Below are positions 3,036 through 19,284 of a stretch of 23,867 nucleotides of DNA, in pieces. The notes below the pieces were generated by a model that was not told the origin of the DNA, made no database searches, and saw only the letters and a program-made list of their open reading frames with translations. Source of the stretch: a virus; IMG/VR virus record IMGVR_UViG_3300015360_000201, positions 1 through 23,867 of that record; one strand, 5' to 3'. The position numbers and the translations under genes are program-made. The first letter of the stretch is position 1; every line of letters begins with the position of its first letter.

Positions 3036-3071
3036 ATTCCGGCAACGATTCCGGCAACTGTTGCCGGAATC
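3036..3071. terminator. Palindrome plus direct repeat (terminator or operator)
   Basis: Twelve-base arms GATTCCGGCAAC (3047-3058) and GTTGCCGGAATC (3060-3071) form a perfect inverted repeat around a single T. An extra direct copy of ATTCCGGCAAC lies at 3036-3046, so the left arm can pair from either copy. The GC-rich stem sits 58 bases after the stop at 2988 and 31 bases before the ATG at 3103. No T-tract follows, so a classical intrinsic terminator is not supported. An operator, a translation-blocking hairpin or an RNA-stabilising stem are equally possible. Confidence 0.6.
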
Positions 3072-3102
3072 CGACGTCACGGGTTTAGGTCACTATTCAA
3101 GT

Positions 3103-4758
3103 ATGCGTTTTCTCGTTGCGATTAAGCAAGACTCGGTCGACGATCGTGACCTTGAGCGTTGGTTTGCCGGCGACGTCACGGTGACCTTAATTTCGGCGCG
3201 TAATGACGGAAATTCTCTGACGCAGGCGCGAGGAGGAAATTCAAACTTGATGCAAGACCTGGCCGACCTTGGCATAGAGGAGGGTCAGATTCATCGTACC
3301 CGAGGGAAATGGCAACACGAGGATGGTAAGATGCATCCGGAGCCGTCTCTTGCTGTTGAAGGTCTCCCTTTTGACGCCGCACTCGCGCTCTCTAAGAAAT
3401 ATAAGCAAGAAGCATTTATTTTCAAGGGTGCCGACGGCGTCGTCGCCATGTATCAAGGCTACCTCAAGCCGGGCGCCAAGACAGAAGCCCGAATTCCAAC
3501 GAAAGACGGACAACCGCTCAGCGGAATGTCGGCTATACGCTCCGCTCCACGTCTACCCAAAGAGAAGCGTAGAGGGCCACCGAATCCGAACGATTTGTGG
3601 GTAGGCACACGCTCCAAGTCTTTTGAGATCCCATTTGACTTCGCTGACGACTCCAGTGTAAAGTCTTGGGACGGTGAGTCGCCTCTGACACAGGCTCACT
3701 TAGACGATCACGGTAAGGCTACAGGACAGCATGGACGAGAAATCGATGACGGCGGATTACGCACGGCGCAAAAAGGTCGTGGAAGAGCTGGACGCACAGA
3801 CGCGTCTAAGGCAGGCCGAAAGGCTGGCGCAGGCCGATTACAAGTTGCGGAAGCAACTGAGGTGGAAACGTCTCGAGCGGATACGCAAGTCCGGATTAAG
3901 CTTGGTCGACGATCCTTTTCGTGTCGAGTAGCGTCCACGCACGCCGATCAAGTCATCGGCCTATCCAGGACGGCATCTTTGAGCGACACGGAAGGACTCC
4001 TTTTCTTCTTTGCCGAGCCTCAAGATGTTACGATGCACCAAGGTGGAGTGGCTTACCCGCTTGACATGATTGGAATCGACGTGAATCACGTCGTGACTAA
4101 AATTGTAGCCGGCACCGTGCCCAAATCAACTAAAAAGTTTAATTTTTCTCGCGTCGCATATCTGCTCGAAGTAGTTGCCGGTTCCGGCGTTAAGGTTGGC
4201 GATAAACTGACAGGCGACGAGCGTTTCGACCGAGGTCTTCACGACCGCGAAGACGAAGATGGCGACGATAAAACGATCACTCGACGTACACCGGACGTCG
4301 TCGAACAAGAGTCGACGCACATGTATGACGAGCCCATGGCCGAATACTACCATCAACTTTATCCTGACGCATTAGCGGACCAGCTTCTTGAGCCTGACAT
4401 AGCGGATCCGGTCTTCAAGCGCGGACAGCGCGGCAAATGCGCACAAATTGTGGACGAGGCGAAGTTCGTCGAGAAGGTTGCCGATATCCTTTTTGCACAC
4501 GTGGATCAGATTAAGTGGGGGCCCGATCATCTGAATGGCGGCGTCACGGAGCGTGCAGTAGTGACCCGTGAGCTACTCGCGCAATGGTTAGGCCGGGCGA
4601 CCACGGAGGCGTCCAGATACGTTCTCGAGGCAGCGGCCGACGCGCGAGGACTCAACCTGATCGGGGACGCATTCCTACTGAGCGGCATGGCGGAAACCGT
4701 ACAAGTTGGCGGGAACGGCCCTGCCCCTATTCTCGTTTTGCGGCGTCGGTCACTCTAA
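3103..4758 (+). CDS. DUF3293-like / DUF192 multidomain protein (possible gene fusion)
   Basis: With the ATG at 3103 this is 551 residues; an upstream TTG at 3061 lies inside a palindrome and is rejected. Residues about 25-118 resemble DUF3293: ARND near the start, a conserved Asn plus a leucine-rich helix, EPSLAVEGL, then ALALSKKYKQEA. Residues about 263-370 are a clear DUF192 domain: QVIGLSRTASL, GLLFFF, a PLDMIGID core and LLEVVAGSGVKVGDKL. An acidic stretch (HDREDEDGDD) and an unrecognised 180-residue C-terminus follow. Between the two domains, about residues 205-262 are Arg/Gly/Ala/Lys-rich and look unlike folded protein, exactly where another frame holds a sensible 66-residue ORF. DUF192 may therefore be translated separately from a GTG at 3862. 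Neither family has a firmly established function. The gene ends convergently with a minus-strand gene. Confidence 0.6.
   Translation: MRFLVAIKQDSVDDRDLERWFAGDVTVTLISARNDGNSLTQARGGNSNLMQDLADLGIEEGQIHRTRGKWQHEDGKMHPEPSLAVEGLPFDAALALSKKYKQEAFIFKGADGVVAMYQGYLKPGAKTEARIPTKDGQPLSGMSAIRSAPRLPKEKRRGPPNPNDLWVGTRSKSFEIPFDFADDSSVKSWDGESPLTQAHLDDHGKATGQHGREIDDGGLRTAQKGRGRAGRTDASKAGRKAGAGRLQVAEATEVETSRADTQVRIKLGRRSFSCRVASTHADQVIGLSRTASLSDTEGLLFFFAEPQDVTMHQGGVAYPLDMIGIDVNHVVTKIVAGTVPKSTKKFNFSRVAYLLEVVAGSGVKVGDKLTGDERFDRGLHDREDEDGDDKTITRRTPDVVEQESTHMYDEPMAEYYHQLYPDALADQLLEPDIADPVFKRGQRGKCAQIVDEAKFVEKVADILFAHVDQIKWGPDHLNGGVTERAVVTRELLAQWLGRATTEASRYVLEAAADARGLNLIGDAFLLSGMAETVQVGGNGPAPILVLRRRSL
3731..3931 (+). 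CDS. Nested out-of-frame small coiled-coil protein
   Basis: A 66-residue ORF in the +2 frame relative to the long ORF that encloses it. It starts with ATG preceded by AGGA four bases upstream and ends at TAG 3929-3931. The product is strongly helical and amphipathic, with many Arg, Lys, Glu, Leu and Gln in heptad-like order (for example KVVEELDAQTRLRQAERL), and ends LSLVDDPFRVE. The reading in the enclosing frame over the same bases is low-complexity Arg/Gly/Ala. That contrast suggests this frame is the one under protein selection here. The natural reading is DUF3293 gene, small helical gene, then DUF192 gene, with the first lacking its own stop. Function unknown. Confidence 0.5.
   Translation: MDEKSMTADYARRKKVVEELDAQTRLRQAERLAQADYKLRKQLRWKRLERIRKSGLSLVDDPFRVE
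3848..3864 (+). promoter_or_regulatory. Candidate internal ribosome binding site and GTG start for the DUF192 part
   Basis: CGGAAG (3848-3853) lies 8 bases before GTG 3862-3864, in the frame of the DUF192 domain. Translation from here would give a 298-residue protein whose DUF192 domain begins about 10 residues in, the usual position for a stand-alone member. It overlaps the last 70 bases of the nested helical ORF, consistent with the tightly overlapping gene style seen elsewhere in the window. Confidence 0.4.
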
Positions 4759-4803
4759 TAAATCCTGGTATTGCGGCGTCGGTCACTCCAATAAATCCTG
4801 GTA
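4738..4803. repeat. 33-bp tandem duplication at a convergent gene junction
   Basis: Two adjacent 33-base units (4738-4770 and 4771-4803) differ at a single base (CTCTAAT versus CTCCAAT). The first carries the TAA that ends the plus-strand gene; the second carries the TGA that ends the minus-strand gene. Upstream of copy 1, ATTCTCGTTTTG and ATCCTGGTATTG of copy 2 both read I-L-V-L, differing only at third positions. This suggests the duplication once extended further as coding sequence. Confidence 0.85.
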
Positions 4804-5106
4804 AAGCTGGGCTATACGCAAGTTAAATGCGGCCCGATCGTCCTGTTCAATGCGACGCCGGCAGGCATCATGCAACTCTTTTTTTAGATTGCGCAGGTTT
4901 ACGACCATGCTCAGGGCGAGGTCGAAATCGCAATCTTGCCCGTCACGCAGGCTCGACTCCGTCTCGAAGTTCAAAATCGTCGATTTACCGGGCACGATGA
5001 GCAGTGTGTCGCGTATCTCGAAGCATCTTGACTCTTTTCGCACGATTCCAAAGGTTTTTAGTGCGTACAGCGCCGCGATAAATTTCTCGGCCTCATCTTT
5101 GTCCAT
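4783..5106 (-). CDS. Hypothetical protein, last gene of antisense island 1
   Basis: A 107-residue protein starting MDKDEAEKFIAALYAL. It is soluble and mixed alpha/beta: an N-terminal helix, a basic beta region around residues 18-48, then a long helical C-terminus. No family is recognised. The ATG follows GGAAGG at about 9 bases, inside the 3' end of the upstream zinc-ribbon gene; the spacing between the two genes is only 4 bases, so they are almost certainly translated from one message. The stop codon lies in the second copy of a 33-base duplication. Confidence 0.7.
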   Translation of the reverse strand: MDKDEAEKFIAALYALKTFGIVRKESRCFEIRDTLLIVPGKSTILNFETESSLRDGQDCDFDLALSMVVNLRNLKKELHDACRRRIEQDDRAAFNLRIAQLYQDLLE

Positions 5107-5110
5107 GCGA

Positions 5111-5329
5111 TCACACCTTCCAAGCCTCTGACATGCGAGCCGTCAGAGTAATTTCTTCACGTTTGAGGTTCGAGCCGCACAGGCAATGATCTTCGCACGG
5201 TGCGCCACAGCGTTCTCGCGTGCATGGGTCGACCAGTTGGGCACAGCTTTGTTCGTCGCGTTCGGCAATGGTCGACATAAGGTCGCCGGACCAACGGCAG
5301 GCCGGACAGGCGTAAGAGTATTTAGGCAT
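5111..5329 (-). CDS. Small zinc-ribbon protein (FmdB-like N-terminus)
   Basis: A 72-residue Cys-rich protein. The start MPKYSYACPAC followed by a Ser/Asp-rich turn and IAERDEQSC resembles the FmdB family of small zinc ribbons, in which a first CxxC knuckle is followed by a short beta segment and a second Cys pair. Cys are at 8, 11, 29, 36, 41, 45, 49 and 51, enough for two zinc sites; the Cys-rich insertion at 29-51 is longer than in ordinary FmdB proteins. It probably binds zinc and may regulate or bridge another protein or nucleic acid; no catalytic site is visible. It is the middle gene of a minus-strand trio, with a purine-rich run upstream of its ATG. Confidence 0.7.
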   Translation of the reverse strand: MPKYSYACPACRWSGDLMSTIAERDEQSCAQLVDPCTRERCGAPCEDHCLCGSNLKREEITLTARMSEAWKV

Positions 5330-5358
5330 TTGTTACTTTCTTTCTTTCGTGATTTCGA

Positions 5359-5589
5359 CTACGCCTTGACGAAACGGGGCAGTGTCACCTCGGCTAGGAA
5401 TTCAGCCGCAGGTCGAGTCCAAACTTCAGTTTCACCGTTTACTACATATTTACTGTAAGATACCAGCGTTATCGCGGGATCGGACTCGAGATTGGATAGG
5501 AGCAAGATTGTGTACTTATTTCCCGTCTTGGAGTGGCGCCAGGTTTCGCCAACCTTGGGGAGCGGCATCGAAGGGTCAAGAGCGGACAC
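5359..5589 (-). CDS. DUF1653 family protein
   Basis: A 76-residue protein from a GTG at 5589, or 69 residues from an in-frame ATG at 5568 (MPLPKVGETWRH); neither has a strong ribosome binding site. The order G-E-T-W-R-H, a short turn and K-Y-T-I-L, then VSYSKYVVNGETEVWTRP and a final AEFLAEV...RF matches DUF1653, a small beta-rich domain of unknown function common in bacteria and phages. The conserved R-H, the aromatic/Val strand, the W-x-R-P turn and the closing R-F are all present, so the protein looks intact. It is the first gene of the minus-strand island, with a 29-base gap to the zinc-ribbon gene. Confidence 0.75.
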   Translation of the reverse strand: MSALDPSMPLPKVGETWRHSKTGNKYTILLLSNLESDPAITLVSYSKYVVNGETEVWTRPAAEFLAEVTLPRFVKA

Positions 5590-5708
5590 TGTCTAAGCTG
5601 TTAGCAATAGATAGGCCAATCTTTCGCTCTGGATTTGGAAAAATGAGAGTCTTGAGCGCGCTTTTCATGTGCCCCTAAGACGCCTCAAAACGGCACATTA
5701 TCTTGTGT
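5590..5708. promoter_or_regulatory. Divergent intergenic region
   Basis: About 119 bases separate a minus-strand gene start (5589) from a plus-strand gene start (ATG 5709), so promoters for both directions should lie here or overlap it. On the plus strand TTGAGC (about 5653) and TAAGAC (about 5677), 18 bases apart, are a weak sigma70-like pair. The minus strand has no convincing pair. There is no strong hairpin or ORF. Confidence 0.3.
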
Positions 5709-7259
5709 ATGGCCAATAAATTCGACGAGGCACGAGCCCGACGTCGCGCACACCGTCAAGAACGCATCTATTCACAACTACGTGATGTGATGGAAGAAAC
5801 GTTTGACAAAGCGGCGTGGAACATGAACAGGAATCCAGAAGACGGGTCCACGCGGCGCATCCAAGGCCACCCCGGCGTCGCCGGTTCGGCATTCGTGACC
5901 GAAGTTTTGTCCGATTTCGACCTCGGTGGGCACTTGCGCTGCCGATATCTCGGCCTTACCCGAGAGGCGGGCATGGGCGGGCATGGGATCATTGACGGCG
6001 TACTAAAGATCGAGGCCACCATCACGCCTCCTCGTGGCGCACCTCAACGATTTGAGGTTCCTGTGCAAGTTCGGGCAGGCAAGATGCTGCGTCCAGCCCT
6101 CCTGAAATACCAGGGACACCCGGTCGTGATCTCGCAGAGCGGTATTGACGATATCGTACAACCTACGACGTTTGATGATCCTCCCGAACTCGATCGTGAG
6201 CACATGTTTGCTCCGAAACGGAAGCGTGCTAAGTTCGACCCGGCGTCATTCATGACCCGAGAAGAACAAGAAAAACTCAAGCAACAACGCGAAGACGAGA
6301 AGGCGACTGAAAAGTCGGAGGCGGACAAGGCCAAGGCTCGGCGAAAACAGAATCAGGGTGTGCCGCAAGATTTCGATCTTGATCGTGTCGCCGACGGCAG
6401 CACCAAGGTAGCGCGACTCAACACTGAGCTGCAAGTCGGCGCTGATGTTATCTGTCAGGGCGCCTACGTTCAAATTATCGCCTCGTATGACGATGGTATT
6501 CACGTCGTCGATTCTAACGGCGTCGAAGCCTTGGTGGACTCCAGTTTCCTAGTGCGCGCCCCGGTAACTCGGGCGATTACGGCAAAAGACAGTGACCCCA
6601 TTTGGGTAAAGCTGACAGCTCCGTCCGCCCCATCCCCGTCCAGCCTTGAGCAGCCCGACGATGAAGAGGCTGAAGAGAACTGGGATGATTACGATTTCAA
6701 CGCTGAACCGCTCGGCGGTACAGGTGTGACCCTCGGGGAGTTGGAGAAGATCGTCACGCAAAATACGACCAATCTTCGCAGCATTTATGAATTGGAGTAC
6801 AAGGTTTCCATGCTCTCTCGAGAGCGTAAGAAGGGTCCTCTTGCTGATCGCGCCGAGATGAATCTCATGCAGTGGCGTACGTCTTTGGAGGCGGCCGTCA
6901 ATTCGGAAATCTCTCTGTTGCATGACGCGTTTATCGATTGGATGGACGAATCGAACGAGAAGTATGGCGGCATGGGAGACACGCGTATTATTCAGTCCAT
7001 CCAAGGCATGACCGATCGTCTCGCCTCGCCTCCAGCCGAAATCGGGCCTCGAATCGCGTTGCTCCACGAGGCGTTAACGACCGCGCATCACAACGCTAGC
7101 ATGGGCACTTTTGCGTACGGTAAGGGGCGCGACAACGACTCAGCAATGGAAGGCGAAATTCAGAATCAGCTCGACGATTTGTCGAATACCGACGTAAGTC
7201 CTTGGGACGCGGAGCTGGAAAAGCTCAAGAGCATGCCTCGCGGCGGCGCTAAGCGTTAG
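5709..7259 (+). CDS. Large hypothetical protein, probable virion or assembly protein
   Basis: A 516-residue protein that I do not recognise. I prefer ATG 5709 (MANKFDEARARRR) over the TTG two codons earlier. In order: a basic helical N-terminus (1-50); a globular alpha/beta domain (about 50-170) with a Gly-rich turn GMGGHGIIDG and LRPALLKYQGHPVVISQSGIDDIV; a long charged helix rich in Lys, Glu and Gln (about 185-220); a small beta domain (about 230-290); an acidic Pro/Asp/Glu linker (about 300-335); and a helical C-terminal region to the end. The multi-domain build and its place between structural genes suggest a virion or assembly role. It ends 3 bases from a convergent minus-strand gene. 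Confidence 0.7.
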   Translation: MANKFDEARARRRAHRQERIYSQLRDVMEETFDKAAWNMNRNPEDGSTRRIQGHPGVAGSAFVTEVLSDFDLGGHLRCRYLGLTREAGMGGHGIIDGVLKIEATITPPRGAPQRFEVPVQVRAGKMLRPALLKYQGHPVVISQSGIDDIVQPTTFDDPPELDREHMFAPKRKRAKFDPASFMTREEQEKLKQQREDEKATEKSEADKAKARRKQNQGVPQDFDLDRVADGSTKVARLNTELQVGADVICQGAYVQIIASYDDGIHVVDSNGVEALVDSSFLVRAPVTRAITAKDSDPIWVKLTAPSAPSPSSLEQPDDEEAEENWDDYDFNAEPLGGTGVTLGELEKIVTQNTTNLRSIYELEYKVSMLSRERKKGPLADRAEMNLMQWRTSLEAAVNSEISLLHDAFIDWMDESNEKYGGMGDTRIIQSIQGMTDRLASPPAEIGPRIALLHEALTTAHHNASMGTFAYGKGRDNDSAMEGEIQNQLDDLSNTDVSPWDAELEKLKSMPRGGAKR

Positions 7260-7262
7260 TCG

Positions 7263-7763
7263 CTACTTTAGCGTCAGTTTGAAGGCCGTCTCAAATTCCA
7301 CGACAAAGTCTTTTTGTGCCTGAGTTTCAGGCACATCACGTTTCCGCGCCTTCGAGACAATCTCTATCGCACGCGCGGCGGCGTAGCCTTCGGTCACAAG
7401 GGCGCACGCGAGGACTGTCCCAGTCCGTCCTCGACCTGCTAGGCAGTGGATGTATACGCAGGTGCCGTTCGCCGTTGCCGATGCTTGCAACGTGTGCAAG
7501 TTGCCCAGAATCTCGGTCATGTATAAAAGCGAGGGCACGGTCATGTCTGGGATCGGACAGTGGAGAACGACTCCTCCGCGGGCACTAAATTCTGTCTTCT
7601 CCTCGAGGTTGTACTCGTGCGGTTCCTGTAAACACAGGACCGACCTCACGTCTCTGTCCCAGAGAGTTGAATAGTCGCGCGCCGACAGAGGCATCGGTCC
7701 CATACACAGAGTTTCGTCAAGAGTGTAAATCCAACTCTTATTGTTGCCCTCAGAATTATCCAT
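7263..7763 (-). CDS. Dual-specificity / tyrosine protein phosphatase
   Basis: A 166-residue protein with the Cys-based phosphatase signature: VYIHCLAGRGRTG, giving the nucleophile Cys107 and phosphate-binding Arg113 in the C-x5-R P-loop, followed by Thr114. About 34 residues before it, CPIPDMTVPS supplies the WPD-loop-type general acid Asp73. The N-terminus (LCMGPMPLSARDYSTLWDRDVRSVLCL) matches the start of atypical dual-specificity phosphatases, and total length fits a minimal single-domain enzyme. It should remove phosphate from Tyr or Ser/Thr residues, or from another phosphorylated substrate, in the cytoplasm. All key residues are present. ATG 7763 is preferred over GTG 7772 because GTGGA sits about 5 bases upstream. 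It follows an HNH gene on the same strand with a gap of about 33 bases. Confidence 0.88.
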   Translation of the reverse strand: MDNSEGNNKSWIYTLDETLCMGPMPLSARDYSTLWDRDVRSVLCLQEPHEYNLEEKTEFSARGGVVLHCPIPDMTVPSLLYMTEILGNLHTLQASATANGTCVYIHCLAGRGRTGTVLACALVTEGYAAARAIEIVSKARKRDVPETQAQKDFVVEFETAFKLTLK

Positions 7764-7796
7764 CAAGTCCACTTTAGCACGTAGCGTGCCAAGAGG

Positions 7797-8144
7797 TCAA
7801 GAGGTCTCGAGTCGCGCGAGAATTTCAGGTTGGTGCACAACTAAAAACTGCCGTAGTCTCAGCGAGACTCTGCCTCGTACAAATTCGGCTAATGGTTGGA
7901 CACCTCGAGCCTGATTACACGCGCGGCAGGCCATGACCACGTTGGATGGGCCAGAATTTTTACCTCCTGCGGACATCGGTATTACGTGCTCTCGCGTGCG
8001 AGCCAAAAGAGGCGTGTCTAGTCCGCAATACAGACACTCCGTTTCAGCCTGGATGCGCTGTAAATCGGCCTTACGTCGGTGTTGAGACGGTTTTGAACTT
8101 CGGGCCATCGCTTCGAGGGCAGTTAGCACGATGCATGCCGGCAC
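7797..8144 (-). CDS. HNH endonuclease
   Basis: Up to 115 residues from GTG 8144, or 103 from ATG 8108 (MARSSKPSQHRRK); the choice of start is unsure. The HNH core is complete: CLYCG (Cys37, Cys40), REHVIP with His53, Asn68 in SNVVMACRACN, and a second zinc pair Cys73/Cys76 followed by NQARG. This is the zinc-supported beta-beta-alpha-metal fold that cuts DNA. Numbering is from the GTG. It lies back to back with the large terminase gene. HNH proteins beside terminases are known in other phages to take part in packaging-site cleavage, but those are usually on the same strand. A homing or defence-type nuclease is the alternative. Confidence 0.88.
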   Translation of the reverse strand: MPACIVLTALEAMARSSKPSQHRRKADLQRIQAETECLYCGLDTPLLARTREHVIPMSAGGKNSGPSNVVMACRACNQARGVQPLAEFVRGRVSLRLRQFLVVHQPEILARLETS

Positions 8145-8212
8145 TTTTCAGCGTGTTACCACGTAACATATCAAAATCAGCCGTAGTATCGAAGTGAATC
8201 ACTATTCTCTTA
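8145..8212. promoter_or_regulatory. Divergent region with two dyads
   Basis: The spacer between the HNH gene and the terminase gene contains TGTTAC-CAC-GTAACA (8154-8168) and AGTGA-A-TCACT (8193-8203). Both are perfect short palindromes of operator type. If the HNH start is ATG 8108 the spacer is 104 bases. The dyads could bind a regulator controlling both directions; no clear promoter hexamers were identified. Confidence 0.4.
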
Positions 8213-10273
8213 GTGGGATTCTCCACAAAAAGAGCAAAGCCGGTCTCGTTATGGGGCTCGCAAAAAGACTTAGCCTCCGACCTCGGAGACCTCGTCTCGC
8301 AGTCGGTCACGCTGGCGGCGAACCTCGACGTCGAGCGCGAATATTTAAAACGTCGCGCGCCCAATGCTATCGAATGGATCGTCGATCGACGGTTCTGCAA
8401 TCAGCCGCAGTCCTACAAATTCTGGGGTTCGTATCGTCTCGTCAAAGAATTTTTTGAGTTGCGCTGTCCTGACTGTAACACGCCCGAAGTCGCCGGAGAG
8501 AGTTTCGTGCCCTCGGACCCTTGGGGACTCTCGCGCACGCAGCTCGAGTCAGAAGTGCTGCTCGTTTGGTCGGAAGACCAACAGGATGACGTCTGTCCAA
8601 AATGTCGTACGCCTCGCGCACAATTTATTGAGGACGAAGAGTTTAACGGTTACCGCAACTTACTAGGACTAATCGGTCAGCGAAGTGGAAAGAGCACGAC
8701 TCTGGGTATGATCGGCACCTATATCGAACATGTACTCTCCACGATCGGTCTTACGCACGCAGACGGTCTTTACGGCTACCTGAATCATCCTCGCGGCGAC
8801 CCGTTGCACATGACATTCATTGCCTCGACGGCAACGCAGGCCAAAGAGACCATTTGGGCAAAGTACAAAGGCTATCGTGCAAATGCGCCGTGGTTTCGAC
8901 GTTATGTGCCTTGGGTGAAGGCGCAAGAATCCATCCAAGTTATCACTCCTGGCATGGAGCCATGGAGCTACACGGAAAATTCGACGCATATTCATAACGG
9001 GCTGCTTGGCCTGTCCGTCGACTCCCTGAACAGTAACTCTAACGGCATCGCAGGGCGTACTCGAGTAGCTTCGCTCATCGATGAAATTTGTCGCATGGAG
9101 CAGACGGAATCGTCACGTTCGGCGCAAGAAGTGTATCGTTCCATGGACGCCTCCGTGCAAACAGTGCAGGGCACGGCGGAACAATTCGGTCTTCCCACAT
9201 GGCTCGGACTTACGGCGGCCATCTCCTCGGTCATGTCCGTAAACGATTATGGCATGCAGTTGCTAGAGTCCTCCAAAACTGACTCGCGTGTTTATGCTCG
9301 CAAAATGGCGACATGGGATTTTAATCCGTACCTGCCTAGATCTCGTTTCGCTGACATGCTGAAGAAAGACTTTGTCGGTACGATGCGCAATTTTGGCTCC
9401 GTCCCACCCGCAGCGGCCACGCCACTAATCGATCGTCCCGACGATTTCATTCGTACTGCGGTAGACAAGACGCTAACGCCTACGGCAACGTTTACTTACT
9501 ACGATATCCCAGGCACGCACGGAAATCCGGACATGCTCGGCGTCAAAGTCGATGACATGCGCCCGTTGTTCGGAGCGACCCCTCGAGTTATCGCGGTAGA
9601 CGCGGGTAAAAACTTCGACGCCTTTTCCGTCGCTTGTGCGCACGGGGACACCGATGCGGACGGCAATGTTATCACTGTTTTTGACTGGGTCATTCGACTG
9701 CTTACGCGAAACAAATCTCAAGAAGTTTATTTTGAGTCCGTGTACCAGCTATTAAAGTCTCTCGTGCCTCTGATGCCGATCTCTAAGGTGATGTTCGACC
9801 ATTGGCAATCTACGACCATCATTCAACGCCTGCGAAACGAGTTCGGCATCTGGTCGGAAGAGGAGGTCACCACGAATGAACACTTTATTCGCTTCATGCG
9901 CGACTGTTATTCCGGGTACGTCAAGCTTCTGCCGGAACTGGACGAGGATCCAAGTTTTGACCCTCCCTACAAAAGTGCTCAGGGCGCCGCCTTGTATGAA
10001 CTTTTGCATCTCGAGCGCGATCCTAAAAATGACAACGTTTTTAACCCTGCCAAGGGGAAGCGGCGCGGGTATGATTCAGACGATACGGCACGCGTAATTG
10101 TGCACGCACATCGTCTCGTTCAAGACTCGGGCTTTACCGAGAGGCAAGACGATACCTCGCGACGCGCGCGTCGAATTCGTGCCGAGGCTTCAACGGCAGA
10201 CTGGAATTCAAGCGTTCGAGGCGGCGTCTTTAACTTCTCCAAATTTACTAAGGGCGGGGGACGCGGCTGGTAG
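8213..10273 (+). CDS. terL: Terminase large subunit (packaging ATPase/nuclease)
   Basis: A 686-residue motor protein that pumps DNA through the portal and cuts the concatemer. Walker A is GQRSGKST (155-162). Walker B is RVASLIDEI with Asp290 and catalytic Glu291. A coupling-type segment LTAAISSV lies near 333-340. The RNase H-like nuclease shows VIAVDAGKNFDA (Asp463), VMFDHW (Asp529) and DSDDTARVIVHA (Asp623/624), the expected three acidic positions. The N-terminus carries an unusual zinc-ribbon-like pair, CPDC (85-88) and CPKC (128-131), before the ATPase. The start is GTG 8213, the first credible codon after an in-frame TGA; its ribosome binding site is weak. It heads the head-gene module. 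Confidence 0.95.
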   Translation: MGFSTKRAKPVSLWGSQKDLASDLGDLVSQSVTLAANLDVEREYLKRRAPNAIEWIVDRRFCNQPQSYKFWGSYRLVKEFFELRCPDCNTPEVAGESFVPSDPWGLSRTQLESEVLLVWSEDQQDDVCPKCRTPRAQFIEDEEFNGYRNLLGLIGQRSGKSTTLGMIGTYIEHVLSTIGLTHADGLYGYLNHPRGDPLHMTFIASTATQAKETIWAKYKGYRANAPWFRRYVPWVKAQESIQVITPGMEPWSYTENSTHIHNGLLGLSVDSLNSNSNGIAGRTRVASLIDEICRMEQTESSRSAQEVYRSMDASVQTVQGTAEQFGLPTWLGLTAAISSVMSVNDYGMQLLESSKTDSRVYARKMATWDFNPYLPRSRFADMLKKDFVGTMRNFGSVPPAAATPLIDRPDDFIRTAVDKTLTPTATFTYYDIPGTHGNPDMLGVKVDDMRPLFGATPRVIAVDAGKNFDAFSVACAHGDTDADGNVITVFDWVIRLLTRNKSQEVYFESVYQLLKSLVPLMPISKVMFDHWQSTTIIQRLRNEFGIWSEEEVTTNEHFIRFMRDCYSGYVKLLPELDEDPSFDPPYKSAQGAALYELLHLERDPKNDNVFNPAKGKRRGYDSDDTARVIVHAHRLVQDSGFTERQDDTSRRARRIRAEASTADWNSSVRGGVFNFSKFTKGGGRGW

Positions 10274-10878: not shown

Positions 10879-13191
10879 ATGAGTGACAAGAAGATCAAGA
10901 TTTATTCGCGTTGGGGCAATCCAAAACTCCAAGCGGACTTAGACGCGAAACGAGAGATTGCGAAACGCGCAAATCCTGACGTTGATGACGCGCCTCACGG
11001 TTTCACGCCCGCTCAGATCGAGAAGATGGACGAAAAACTTCGTCCCGCGTTTGAAGCCAAGGTCGCCGGCGGGAAAACTGATCGTCGGTCACTCATGCAG
11101 TCACTTTTGCCCGAGGGTCGTGAAGTTCCATTGCGTCGGCGTGCTTACGGCGGCACGTTCAGCGGTGCCGGTGATGCTGGCGGATCTGTATATCAGTCTC
11201 AGCAGCCGTACCTCCCAGAATTTGCGAGCCGTGACCGTCAGTCCTATCCAATGCACCGTAGGCTCGCGAATACTTATTGGCGCCTATTCTACAAGATGGA
11301 TCCAACAATTGGCTCTGTCATTCGCATGAAGGCGAAACTCCCTTGGTCAGACGTACAATTCACCGGCGAAGGCGTCGACGGGTCCATCAAAGAGGCGATG
11401 GAATACGCCTGGCGCGAGTGTGAGATTCTCGCAAATCTGGTCTATTTCTGTTCGGAGGAGGATGTTGTCGGAGAGGTAGTCCCGCACTTGATGTGGGATG
11501 ACGCTAAGGGGCTTTGGACACATCTGGCCTGTCATAATCCAGACCAAATCAACGTTATCCATTCCCCGTTCGTGAAAATGGACCCGATTATCGAGTTTGT
11601 TCCGGATGAGAAACTAAAAGAGATCGCGACGTCTACGCATCCTATGCTCGCTAGAGTTCGGGACTCGATGCCTGACGAGCTGCTGAACGCGTTGCGTGCC
11701 GGCGACAACATTCCATTGGCCTCGACCAATGCCTCTTTCATCGCAAACAAGTTGCACCCGTATGACTTGCGCGGCACCAGCTCCGTATCTAATCTGTGGC
11801 GCTGTCTAATGGGCGAAGATTACCTTTGGGACGCATTCCTTTCCACGGCGAAACGAGCCGCGGCTCCGCTGAAGGTCATCAAACTCGGGTCGGACACGCA
11901 CGGTCATATTCCAGGCCCTGCCGAAGAGCAGCGCTTGCTTCAAAAGTTGGCGGAAGCGGAGAGTGACGTACAGGCATGGCTCGTATATAACAATATGATC
12001 TCCTTTGAAATGGTCGGTAACAGTGACCGTTTGTTGTCGATCAATACGCACTACGATTTGTTCGAGCGTATCAAGTTGGCGTCTCTTGGCGTGTCGAAGG
12101 CATTTCTGAGCGGGGACTCGACGTATACCGCCTCCGCCGCCGGGCTTACGATCTTCTTGCAAAATATGAAGGCTCGGCGTGACTTTTACGTTCACAAGTG
12201 GCTCATCCCTAAATTCTTCATGCCGATGGCTATCGCAAACGAGTGGATTAAACCGAGTAAAAGTAGGGCGAGCGGTGGACACGTTCGAGTCAAGCGCTCC
12301 AGCAAAGAATTACTCGATGACAATCATTACGTGATGCCAACGCTGGAGTGGAGCAAGTCTCTCGACTCTCAGATTGACCGAGACCGCATCGATGCCATGC
12401 AGACACTTGAGCAGAGTCTCGGCATTAAGCTCTCCGATCAAAAGAAGTTTGCTTGCCTCGGCCTCGACAGTGAAGAGGAGCAGAAGCAGATTATTGAAGA
12501 GATTAAATTCAAACGTCAACTCGCAGGACAAGACCCGCAATTGGCGGCGGCTATCGGTCTTGCAGCGCCGGAAGCTCCAGCAGACGGTATGGGAGGCGGC
12601 GGGGGCCCTGGCATGATCAGCCCTGGAATTCCTCCGGCGGCGTTCGGCGTGGACGATGCCGCGTCGGACGGCGGCCTTCCGATGGATGATGCGCCAATGG
12701 GCGACGATTCCGGTTCTATTCCCTCCGAAGTGCCCCTGGATCAGCCTTTGGGCGCCGAACTACAGGCAGGTGACGGCGGGACGCCCACCTCTCCGCGACC
12801 GTCTGCAAAATCTGCCCCGAAAAGCCCGAAAAGTTCTCCGAACAAACACTGGGATCCAAAGACGATCCACAATGTCCAGGATTTCATGGAGAGACTCGAG
12901 CCTAAAGATTTGGACGAGCCTTGGATTTATGCGGTCAAAGATCGTGACGTACAAAAGGCGATTGCTACGGGCGACCCGCTACGGATGAAAGAGGCGTTCG
13001 AGCAATGGTTGGTCGATGAAAATTATCCGCAGGACCACATCGTTGAGTTTGTACGTTCGGTGAAGGCAGACTCGAACGATGCCGTGGAACACGACGTCGA
13101 CTTAGAGAGTCTTTCCCGTATCGAGGCCCAAATACTTGGAAAATCTGAGTATTCAGACCTAATCAAAGGCAAGAATAAATCCGTCAAGTAA
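10879..13191 (+). CDS. Portal protein
   Basis: A 770-residue portal, the dodecameric ring at the capsid vertex that docks the terminase and the tail. The core (about 105-540) has typical features: MHRRLANTYWRLFYKMDPTIG near 125, KLHPYDLRGTSSVSNLW with a following long helix (about 292-320), and LGVSKAFLSGDSTYTASAAGL leading into NMKARRDFYVHKWLIPKFF (about 402-447). A Gly/Pro/Ala/Asp-rich linker (about 560-655) separates the core from an extra helical C-terminal domain of about 115 residues (KHWDPKTIHNVQDF to the end) that ordinary portals lack. It is flanked by terminase upstream and protease/scaffold downstream, as expected. Confidence 0.9.
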   Translation: MSDKKIKIYSRWGNPKLQADLDAKREIAKRANPDVDDAPHGFTPAQIEKMDEKLRPAFEAKVAGGKTDRRSLMQSLLPEGREVPLRRRAYGGTFSGAGDAGGSVYQSQQPYLPEFASRDRQSYPMHRRLANTYWRLFYKMDPTIGSVIRMKAKLPWSDVQFTGEGVDGSIKEAMEYAWRECEILANLVYFCSEEDVVGEVVPHLMWDDAKGLWTHLACHNPDQINVIHSPFVKMDPIIEFVPDEKLKEIATSTHPMLARVRDSMPDELLNALRAGDNIPLASTNASFIANKLHPYDLRGTSSVSNLWRCLMGEDYLWDAFLSTAKRAAAPLKVIKLGSDTHGHIPGPAEEQRLLQKLAEAESDVQAWLVYNNMISFEMVGNSDRLLSINTHYDLFERIKLASLGVSKAFLSGDSTYTASAAGLTIFLQNMKARRDFYVHKWLIPKFFMPMAIANEWIKPSKSRASGGHVRVKRSSKELLDDNHYVMPTLEWSKSLDSQIDRDRIDAMQTLEQSLGIKLSDQKKFACLGLDSEEEQKQIIEEIKFKRQLAGQDPQLAAAIGLAAPEAPADGMGGGGGPGMISPGIPPAAFGVDDAASDGGLPMDDAPMGDDSGSIPSEVPLDQPLGAELQAGDGGTPTSPRPSAKSAPKSPKSSPNKHWDPKTIHNVQDFMERLEPKDLDEPWIYAVKDRDVQKAIATGDPLRMKEAFEQWLVDENYPQDHIVEFVRSVKADSNDAVEHDVDLESLSRIEAQILGKSEYSDLIKGKNKSVK

Positions 13192-18287: not shown

Positions 18288-18372
18288 TAAATTGAGGTCG
18301 GGGTTCGTATTCCTCGCGCCTGAACAAGAAATGAATACGAGCGCAACCGGGTCCGCTAACCCGAGGCATAGA

Positions 18373-19284
18373 ATGAATTCCATTGTCGTCCTTGACGCCC
18401 GCTCAAAATTTATCGAGAACGTGGCTCCGGCAGTCGCGAGATTTGCACTCAAGCAAGGTTTCGCAACAATACACACGCAAGACCCGTTTACTATTCAACT
18501 TGTTGAAGGCGTCGAAAAATGCCCTAAACCTGTTGACTCTCGCGTCAAGGCGCCTATAGAAATCATTCGCATACAGGGAAATATGAACAACAACCAAGTC
18601 ACGAATTCTATCAGCTTCGAGGATTTTTTTGAACGTGTTGACCGTGCGAACGGCGGCGACGGTCTCGTCTACGCGCGCTCCACGCATCCGCAAGGCTATG
18701 ACGTTATTCTCGGCGAACTTTACGACGCGTCAGGCAAGCATGCGCGAAAGTTTCCTCCGATTAAACGCGATCCAGTGCTTCTCACGAAGACGGCACGGCT
18801 TGCTGTTTTGCGCGACCACGGCGACTTGATGGAAATGGTGCAAAAGGGCGCTATCCAACTTATGTCGTCCTCGGAAGCACTTGCATTTTTCGGCCGTAAG
18901 TCTGAAATCACGGGCGTGCCTATCGAAGAATTGATTCGAGATGCCGAACAGGCGTCACAGAAGGCGGCTTCACACTCTCCGGGAAGCGTCACAGTCGACG
19001 AAAAACTCAAGGTCGGTGCCGGCAGTGCGCCAGCCGTCTCGATTGAGGCGGTCATTTCTCCGCGGGTTATGAACTTTGTGGCCGGCCTTAGCGCGGAACT
19101 AGACGACAACCTGCGTACGCCTGAGAAGGCGGCGGCGGTGAAGTTTGCTGACATGATCGACAACCTTTCGAGCGACGAACTCTCGTATATTCAGGCCCAC
19201 GGCTACTACCCCTCGATCCGCAAGAAGGCATCGGCACGGTTTGACGAAATGCAAATCGCCAAGTCGCCGAAAATGGATGAATAA
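18373..19284 (+). CDS. Hypothetical protein downstream of the capsid gene
   Basis: A 303-residue protein from ATG 18373, chosen because GAGG lies 6 bases upstream. In-frame upstream candidates (TTG 18292, ATG 18331) have no ribosome binding site and would start close to a hairpin. The N-terminal 70 residues are alpha/beta (MNSIVVLDARSKFIENVAP...), a Ser/Gly/Val linker lies near residues 200-225, and the C-terminal 80 residues are helical (DDNLRTPEKAAAVKFADMI...). No transmembrane segment or family signature is seen. A head-completion or connector role would fit its place after the capsid gene, but this is only positional inference. Its stop overlaps the next small ORF (TAATG). Confidence 0.7.
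   Translation: MNSIVVLDARSKFIENVAPAVARFALKQGFATIHTQDPFTIQLVEGVEKCPKPVDSRVKAPIEIIRIQGNMNNNQVTNSISFEDFFERVDRANGGDGLVYARSTHPQGYDVILGELYDASGKHARKFPPIKRDPVLLTKTARLAVLRDHGDLMEMVQKGAIQLMSSSEALAFFGRKSEITGVPIEELIRDAEQASQKAASHSPGSVTVDEKLKVGAGSAPAVSIEAVISPRVMNFVAGLSAELDDNLRTPEKAAAVKFADMIDNLSSDELSYIQAHGYYPSIRKKASARFDEMQIAKSPKMDE

Follow-up and report, generated by a model that had tools for sequence, protein, structure and literature searches.

What a phosphatase gene is doing on the minus strand amid the packaging genes of a large uncultivated phage, and what the phage might gain from it, is the question raised by this locus in a 23,867-base virus fragment from IMG/VR (the window, meaning the whole stretch analysed). 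The first-pass annotation had placed a dual-specificity/tyrosine phosphatase at 7263-7763; we found that the open reading frame and strand were right, that this span starts from an internal ATG, and that the intact frame reaches a GTG at 7772 (Table 1). Either the GTG or the ATG at 7763, the latter giving 166 residues, is a possible start. We numbered residues from the GTG, and Cys107 of the earlier annotation is accordingly Cys110 here. The protein scored 61.6 bits against Pfam PF22785 (Tc-R-P; cut-off 27, E 1.2e-16) and 51.5 bits against PF22784 (E 1.5e-13), with the PTP/DSP models weaker, and a PDB sequence search returned TkPTP with an E-value of 8.9e-14; with these E-values the match is far beyond chance. 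The nearest solved relatives by sequence were TkPTP, ShufPTP and PTPMT1, and a search with NCBIfam profiles gave a single match, far under its cut-off. The "polymorphic toxin" in the name of PF22785 does not show a toxin context for the window gene.

Table 1. Positions of the phosphatase gene, its catalytic motifs and the surrounding features in the window.
Feature	Position	Strand	Evidence
Phosphatase gene, 169 aa from GTG	7263..7772	-	Pfam PF22785/PF22784, PDB sequence matches, AlphaFold model and fold matches
P-loop H109-C110-LAGRG-R116-T117 (HCLAGRGRT, residues 109-117)	7422..7448	-	Translation
IPD acid loop I74-P75-D76, general acid D76	7545..7553	-	Translation; D76 invariant in alignments A2 and A3
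Q-loop ETQAQ, E149 and Q153	7314..7328	-	Q153 conserved throughout alignments of 7 and of 15 sequences
Promoter-like site TTGACC-N18-TAAAGT, TG before second hexamer	7771..7800	-	Consensus scan; lead only
HNH endonuclease, 115 aa	7797..8144	-	Pfam HNH_5 43 bits, HNH 34.4 bits, both above cut-off
Apparent 953-base insertion (phosphatase and HNH)	7260..8212		Synteny with Rctr197k and L097; PF22785 search of 17 related records
Late gene (upstream flank), 518 aa, no assigned function	5703..7259	+	Homologue precedes TerL in Rctr197k; tblastn 28.8% over 160 aa, E 5e-19
Terminase large subunit, TerL (downstream flank)	8213..10273	+	phrog_17415, E 1.3e-44

The catalytic elements that had been called intact, an HC-x5-RT P-loop and an IPD acid loop, were both present in the translation, and the protein carries the sequence marks of a compact dual-specificity PTP: a P-loop of the form (H/V)CX5R(S/T), the IPD acid Asp and the Q-loop Gln/Glu. 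Residues H109, C110, G113, R116 and G118 were invariant in alignments of 7 and of 15 sequences, and D76, C110, R116 and Q153 were all invariant across the 15; D76 varied in the 7-sequence alignment because that set held an arsenic-operon protein (L010) without the Asp. All four PTP loop motifs described for TkPTP and ShufPTP were found in the window protein. Vanadate bound to ShufPTP is contacted by E132 and Q136 of the Q-loop (PMC12848742); the window pair E149/Q153 corresponds to these two and has the same four-residue spacing. By the standard two-step mechanism C110 would attack a phosphate held by R116, D76 would protonate the leaving group, and a water positioned by Q153 would free the phosphate from the phospho-cysteine.

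An AlphaFold model built from alignment A3 (pLDDT 84.6, pTM 0.83; residues 1-13 below 50) was predicted to be a PTP fold without additional domains. Searches with Foldseek and VIA-align placed TkPTP first (Z 21.8, rmsd 1.9, 149 aligned residues, 32% identity), with ShufPTP, SsoPTP, VHZ/DUSP23 and KAP at most 1.2 Z behind it (Z 20.6 each for VHZ/DUSP23 and KAP) and Ci-VSP, PTPMT1 and PTEN next (Z 19.5-20.1). The named top matches in a viral structure library were phosphatases of eukaryotic giant viruses. Structure prediction with a search against the DUSP23, KAP and PTP families had been proposed as a check; run here, it returned a PTP-type fold and no rhodanese-like non-phosphatase match. Sequence, confident model and structure searches thus agree on the class originally proposed, and they support a predicted Cys-based PTP superfamily protein of the compact dual-specificity type (TkPTP/VHZ-like).

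The substrate is a separate matter. Because scores were similar across TkPTP-type enzymes, lipid phosphatases (PTPMT1, PTEN-like) and RNA 5'-phosphatases, the fold gives the superfamily and the compact type but not the substrate, and so does not establish that the substrate is a protein. We regard a phosphorylated small molecule as the main alternative to host phosphoproteins. Action on a lipid, inositol or RNA 5'-phosphate, as by PTPMT1, PTEN-like enzymes and viral RNA 5'-phosphatases, is in our estimation unlikely though credible: a baculovirus RNA 5'-phosphatase structure scored close behind along with Ci-VSP, PTPMT1 and PTEN, and an Arg at P-loop position C+4, uncommon in our sample (6 of 81), is common to the window protein and PTPMT1, but TkPTP-type proteins came first by both sequence and structure, PTPMT1 grouped in the tree with another bacterial protein (99/97) and apart from the window protein, and position C+1 is Leu in the window protein as against Lys in PTPMT1.

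Searches of plasmids and genomes gave relatives at roughly 25-39% identity, many of them fused to or beside an ADP-ribosylglycohydrolase (ARG), an association that has been presented as one element of a predicted host response to viral ADP-ribosylation (PMC9503650). An attractive reading was that the window enzyme, like the ARG-coupled R-P phosphatases, acts on phosphorylated ADP-ribose derivatives and serves an NAD+/ADP-ribose arms race. Since the genome scan had been partly seeded with an ARG fusion, we searched again, now with only the window protein as query, in 398 genomes of one phylum (that of G003) and 199 of another (that of G006), taking flanks of ~1.5 kb; ARG coupling was then found in a minority, and there were also stand-alone proteins, ABC ATPase fusions and TCAD9/APH-like fusions. 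A tree of 82 sequences separated the window protein from the ARG-rich clade (95/96), the shortest paths from it leading to ShufPTP and TkPTP, and a reduced tree gave the same separation (96/89). An AU test with the window protein forced into that clade did not reject the grouping (p 0.365), and its exact position in these sequence trees is unsure because its branch is long. The window P-loop, HCLAGRGRTG, departs from the HC[RK]GGLGR usual in ARG-coupled members, and there was no ARG partner among the window genes scanned. With the scan partly ARG-seeded and the trees not supporting close kinship, we dropped the ADP-ribose link, which we hold to be very unlikely.

Among the bacterial relatives, five genomes (L047, L050, L051, L057 and L071) encode an ABC-transporter-type ATPase with a PF22785 phosphatase joined to its C-terminus. 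Large proteins at L066:1483-3387 and L067:1-1896 have a TCAD9 region, a weak APH-kinase-like match and a C-terminal PTP, and by these domain matches would possibly hold kinase and phosphatase in one chain.

How the gene came to lie where it does was addressed by comparison with related viruses. The window TerL is 43% identical to that of Rctr197k (197 kb, from the enrichment culture DAMO/AAA) and ~24% identical to those of phages such as NCTB and PaBG; we found no near-identical DNA in known phages, and no tRNA or Rfam matches in the window. The antisense placement among packaging genes noted earlier was borne out, as the phosphatase sits between the plus-strand 5703-7259 gene and TerL, with portal, head-maturation protease and major head protein recognisable downstream of TerL; the HNH gene shares the orientation of the phosphatase and lies upstream of it at a distance of 24 bp. 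Rctr197k (L002) has counterparts of TerL and of the window genes starting at 67, 1056, 1725, 2371, 3061 and 5703 in unchanged order, the 5703 homologue ending at 12001 and TerL starting at 11998, so that the two overlap; in a further related virus, L097, the frame with the 5703 homologue abuts the TerL frame. Because the genes that overlap or abut in these two are parted by 953 bases in the window, we read that segment as an insertion. A PF22785 search, which found the window's own gene and matches in 8 of 14 control genomes, detected the phosphatase in none of 17 related records (Rctr197k and 16 from IMG/VR), most of which are fragments, so the result shows rarity and not absence. The best reading of this gene order is that HNH and phosphatase form a putative accessory cassette specific to this lineage.

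Such a cassette raises the possibility that the phosphatase is a passenger of a selfish HNH endonuclease and of no benefit to the phage. The closeness and shared orientation of the HNH gene, the lack of a counterpart in the 17 related records and a codon usage less like that of the core genes (so in four of the five antisense genes) are what would be expected of one. On the other hand, the catalytic residues and frame are intact and the G+C content is not different from that of the phage (54.3% vs 53.3%), which argues against a decaying passenger, and we consider this explanation distinctly unlikely. We also considered flanking repeats as scars of insertion and rejected them: no direct repeats flanking the cassette were found, and a 17-nt inverted pair was equalled in 23 of 100 shuffles.

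A second antisense group in the window (4783-5589, minus strand) comprises three small ORFs of 107, 72 and 76 aa, the 72-aa ORF with a weak zinc-ribbon match and the 76-aa ORF a DUF1653 protein. The plus-strand 3061 and 5703 genes that flank this group adjoin in Rctr197k, making it another apparent insertion, and two tandem 33-nt copies, 88% alike (4729-4794), lie where the 3061-4758 gene meets the antisense gene 4783-5106. The 565-aa product of 3061-4758 (plus strand) matched DUF192 (52.4 bits) and, under the cut-off, DUF3293; many related viruses also have the DUF192 part close to TerL. Right after the major head protein, a 330-aa ORF (18292-19284, plus strand) weakly matched the RRXRR domain familiar from IscB proteins (22.1 bits, cut-off 25), and no endonuclease domain was found in this ORF. 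Two related viruses have TerL frames of 1090 and 1556 aa (L090:6351-9623 and L093:1740-6410) with intein-splicing and LAGLIDADG matches; both frames align with the window TerL as two segments, resuming at its residue 153, near the Walker A-like stretch of that protein.

A consensus scan found a promoter-like site that ends 7 nt before the ATG at 7763, one of two such sites observed in the region against 0.6 expected. Its spacer holds a perfect 5+3+5 palindrome, GCACG-CTA-CGTGC; palindromes of this type, with one mismatch allowed, number four in the window against 1.4 expected. Site and palindrome are leads only, and they would let the phosphatase be transcribed apart from the plus-strand late genes.

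On balance, and with confidence a little better than even, we favour a TkPTP/VHZ (DUSP23)-type phosphatase carried in a lineage-specific antisense HNH cassette and dephosphorylating host phosphoproteins for the benefit of the phage. Transcribed probably from its own minus-strand promoter, the enzyme would during infection remove regulatory phosphates from Tyr, and possibly Ser/Thr, of host phosphoproteins to the phage's advantage. The parts of this proposal with direct support are the enzyme class, the intact motifs, the predicted fold and the insertion relative to related phages; we infer phosphatase activity, use of the promoter, a role of the HNH enzyme in mobility, the substrate and the benefit. 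The roles suggested earlier, resetting host protein phosphorylation and countering kinase-based defences, gained no direct support: the window genes covered by our scans included no kinase or defence partner, and in PADLOC the phosphatase had no match and the HNH gene weak ones only. None of these results singles out a particular target or a counter-defence function. A bolder proposal, that an HNH-mobilised compact phosphatase disarms phosphorylation-dependent or ADP-ribose-based host defence as one of a class of counter-defence cargo, strikes us as quite improbable; if true, captured compact phosphatases would be an unrecognised class of such cargo in phages.

The enzyme had also been described as uncommon phage cargo, and our searches agree. 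Beyond its rarity in related viruses, only 7 of 50,697 phage records matched it at E 0.01 or better, all of them Vibrio phages and at no more than 34.7% identity. Searching viral contigs with the phosphatase protein alone gave no match; alignment A1 was too diverse for this search, and alignment A2 gave one locus, from a Vibrio-type phage. The pattern HCxAGxGRTGT was found in a single viral contig, that of a large IMG/VR virus of 140.5 kb (L103:1825-2358, minus strand), whose PTP (HCEAGRGRTGT) adjoins a 537-aa ORF and had no match among phage records. We know of no phage compact PTP with an established substrate. A literature search for a tested phage-encoded compact PTP found no paper, and phage phosphatases appear in two genome papers among the genes presumed to be auxiliary (PMC12038007, PMC12915355). 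As a clean single-gene case, in which the active site is intact, the protein has no partner domains and an apparent insertion interrupts an otherwise conserved gene order, the window phosphatase lends itself to direct tests of how such an enzyme serves a phage.

Among named systems, the Vibrio phage PTPs (phrog_17568; SIO-2, PG28 and IMG/VR locus L043) are likewise phage-encoded and match by profile (E 5e-14), but they form their own clade (99/89; the phage rows have long branches) and have a GCxGGxGRTG P-loop; the window protein, with HCLAGRGRTG, falls outside this group by both P-loop and clade. Their genes (L011:2235-6915 and L012:2352-5348 in Vibrio phages, L043:2463-7476 in the IMG/VR contig) adjoin a pyruvate phosphate dikinase or kinase gene, with two PTPs each in L011 and L043. 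Thymidylate synthase is the name given to the SIO-2 protein VPEG_00063 (L012:4872-5348) and to PHROG 17568, likely a misannotation judging from the PTP-like Pfam match (PF22785, 33.6 bits). The ARG-coupled R-P phosphatases of bacteria (PMC9503650) belong to the same Pfam families, PF22785/PF22784, as the window protein, and differ from it in their ARG partner, P-loop signature and tree position. VHZ/DUSP23 and KAP have the same compact dual-specificity fold but are eukaryotic, with 29% and 22% identity to the window protein in structural alignment. The best match by sequence and structure is to TkPTP of Thermococcus kodakarensis (PDB 5z59, 5z5a and 5z5b) and ShufPTP (9e9l), which have in common with it the IPD acid loop, the CX5R P-loop and the Q-loop Glu/Gln four residues apart. 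TkPTP is the most similar row in the tree (39% identity over 123 tree columns), with HCMAGLGRS in place of HCLAGRGRT; unlike TkPTP, the window protein is encoded by a phage and stands on a long separate branch, an otherwise ordinary enzyme of a previously known kind that is rare in phages.
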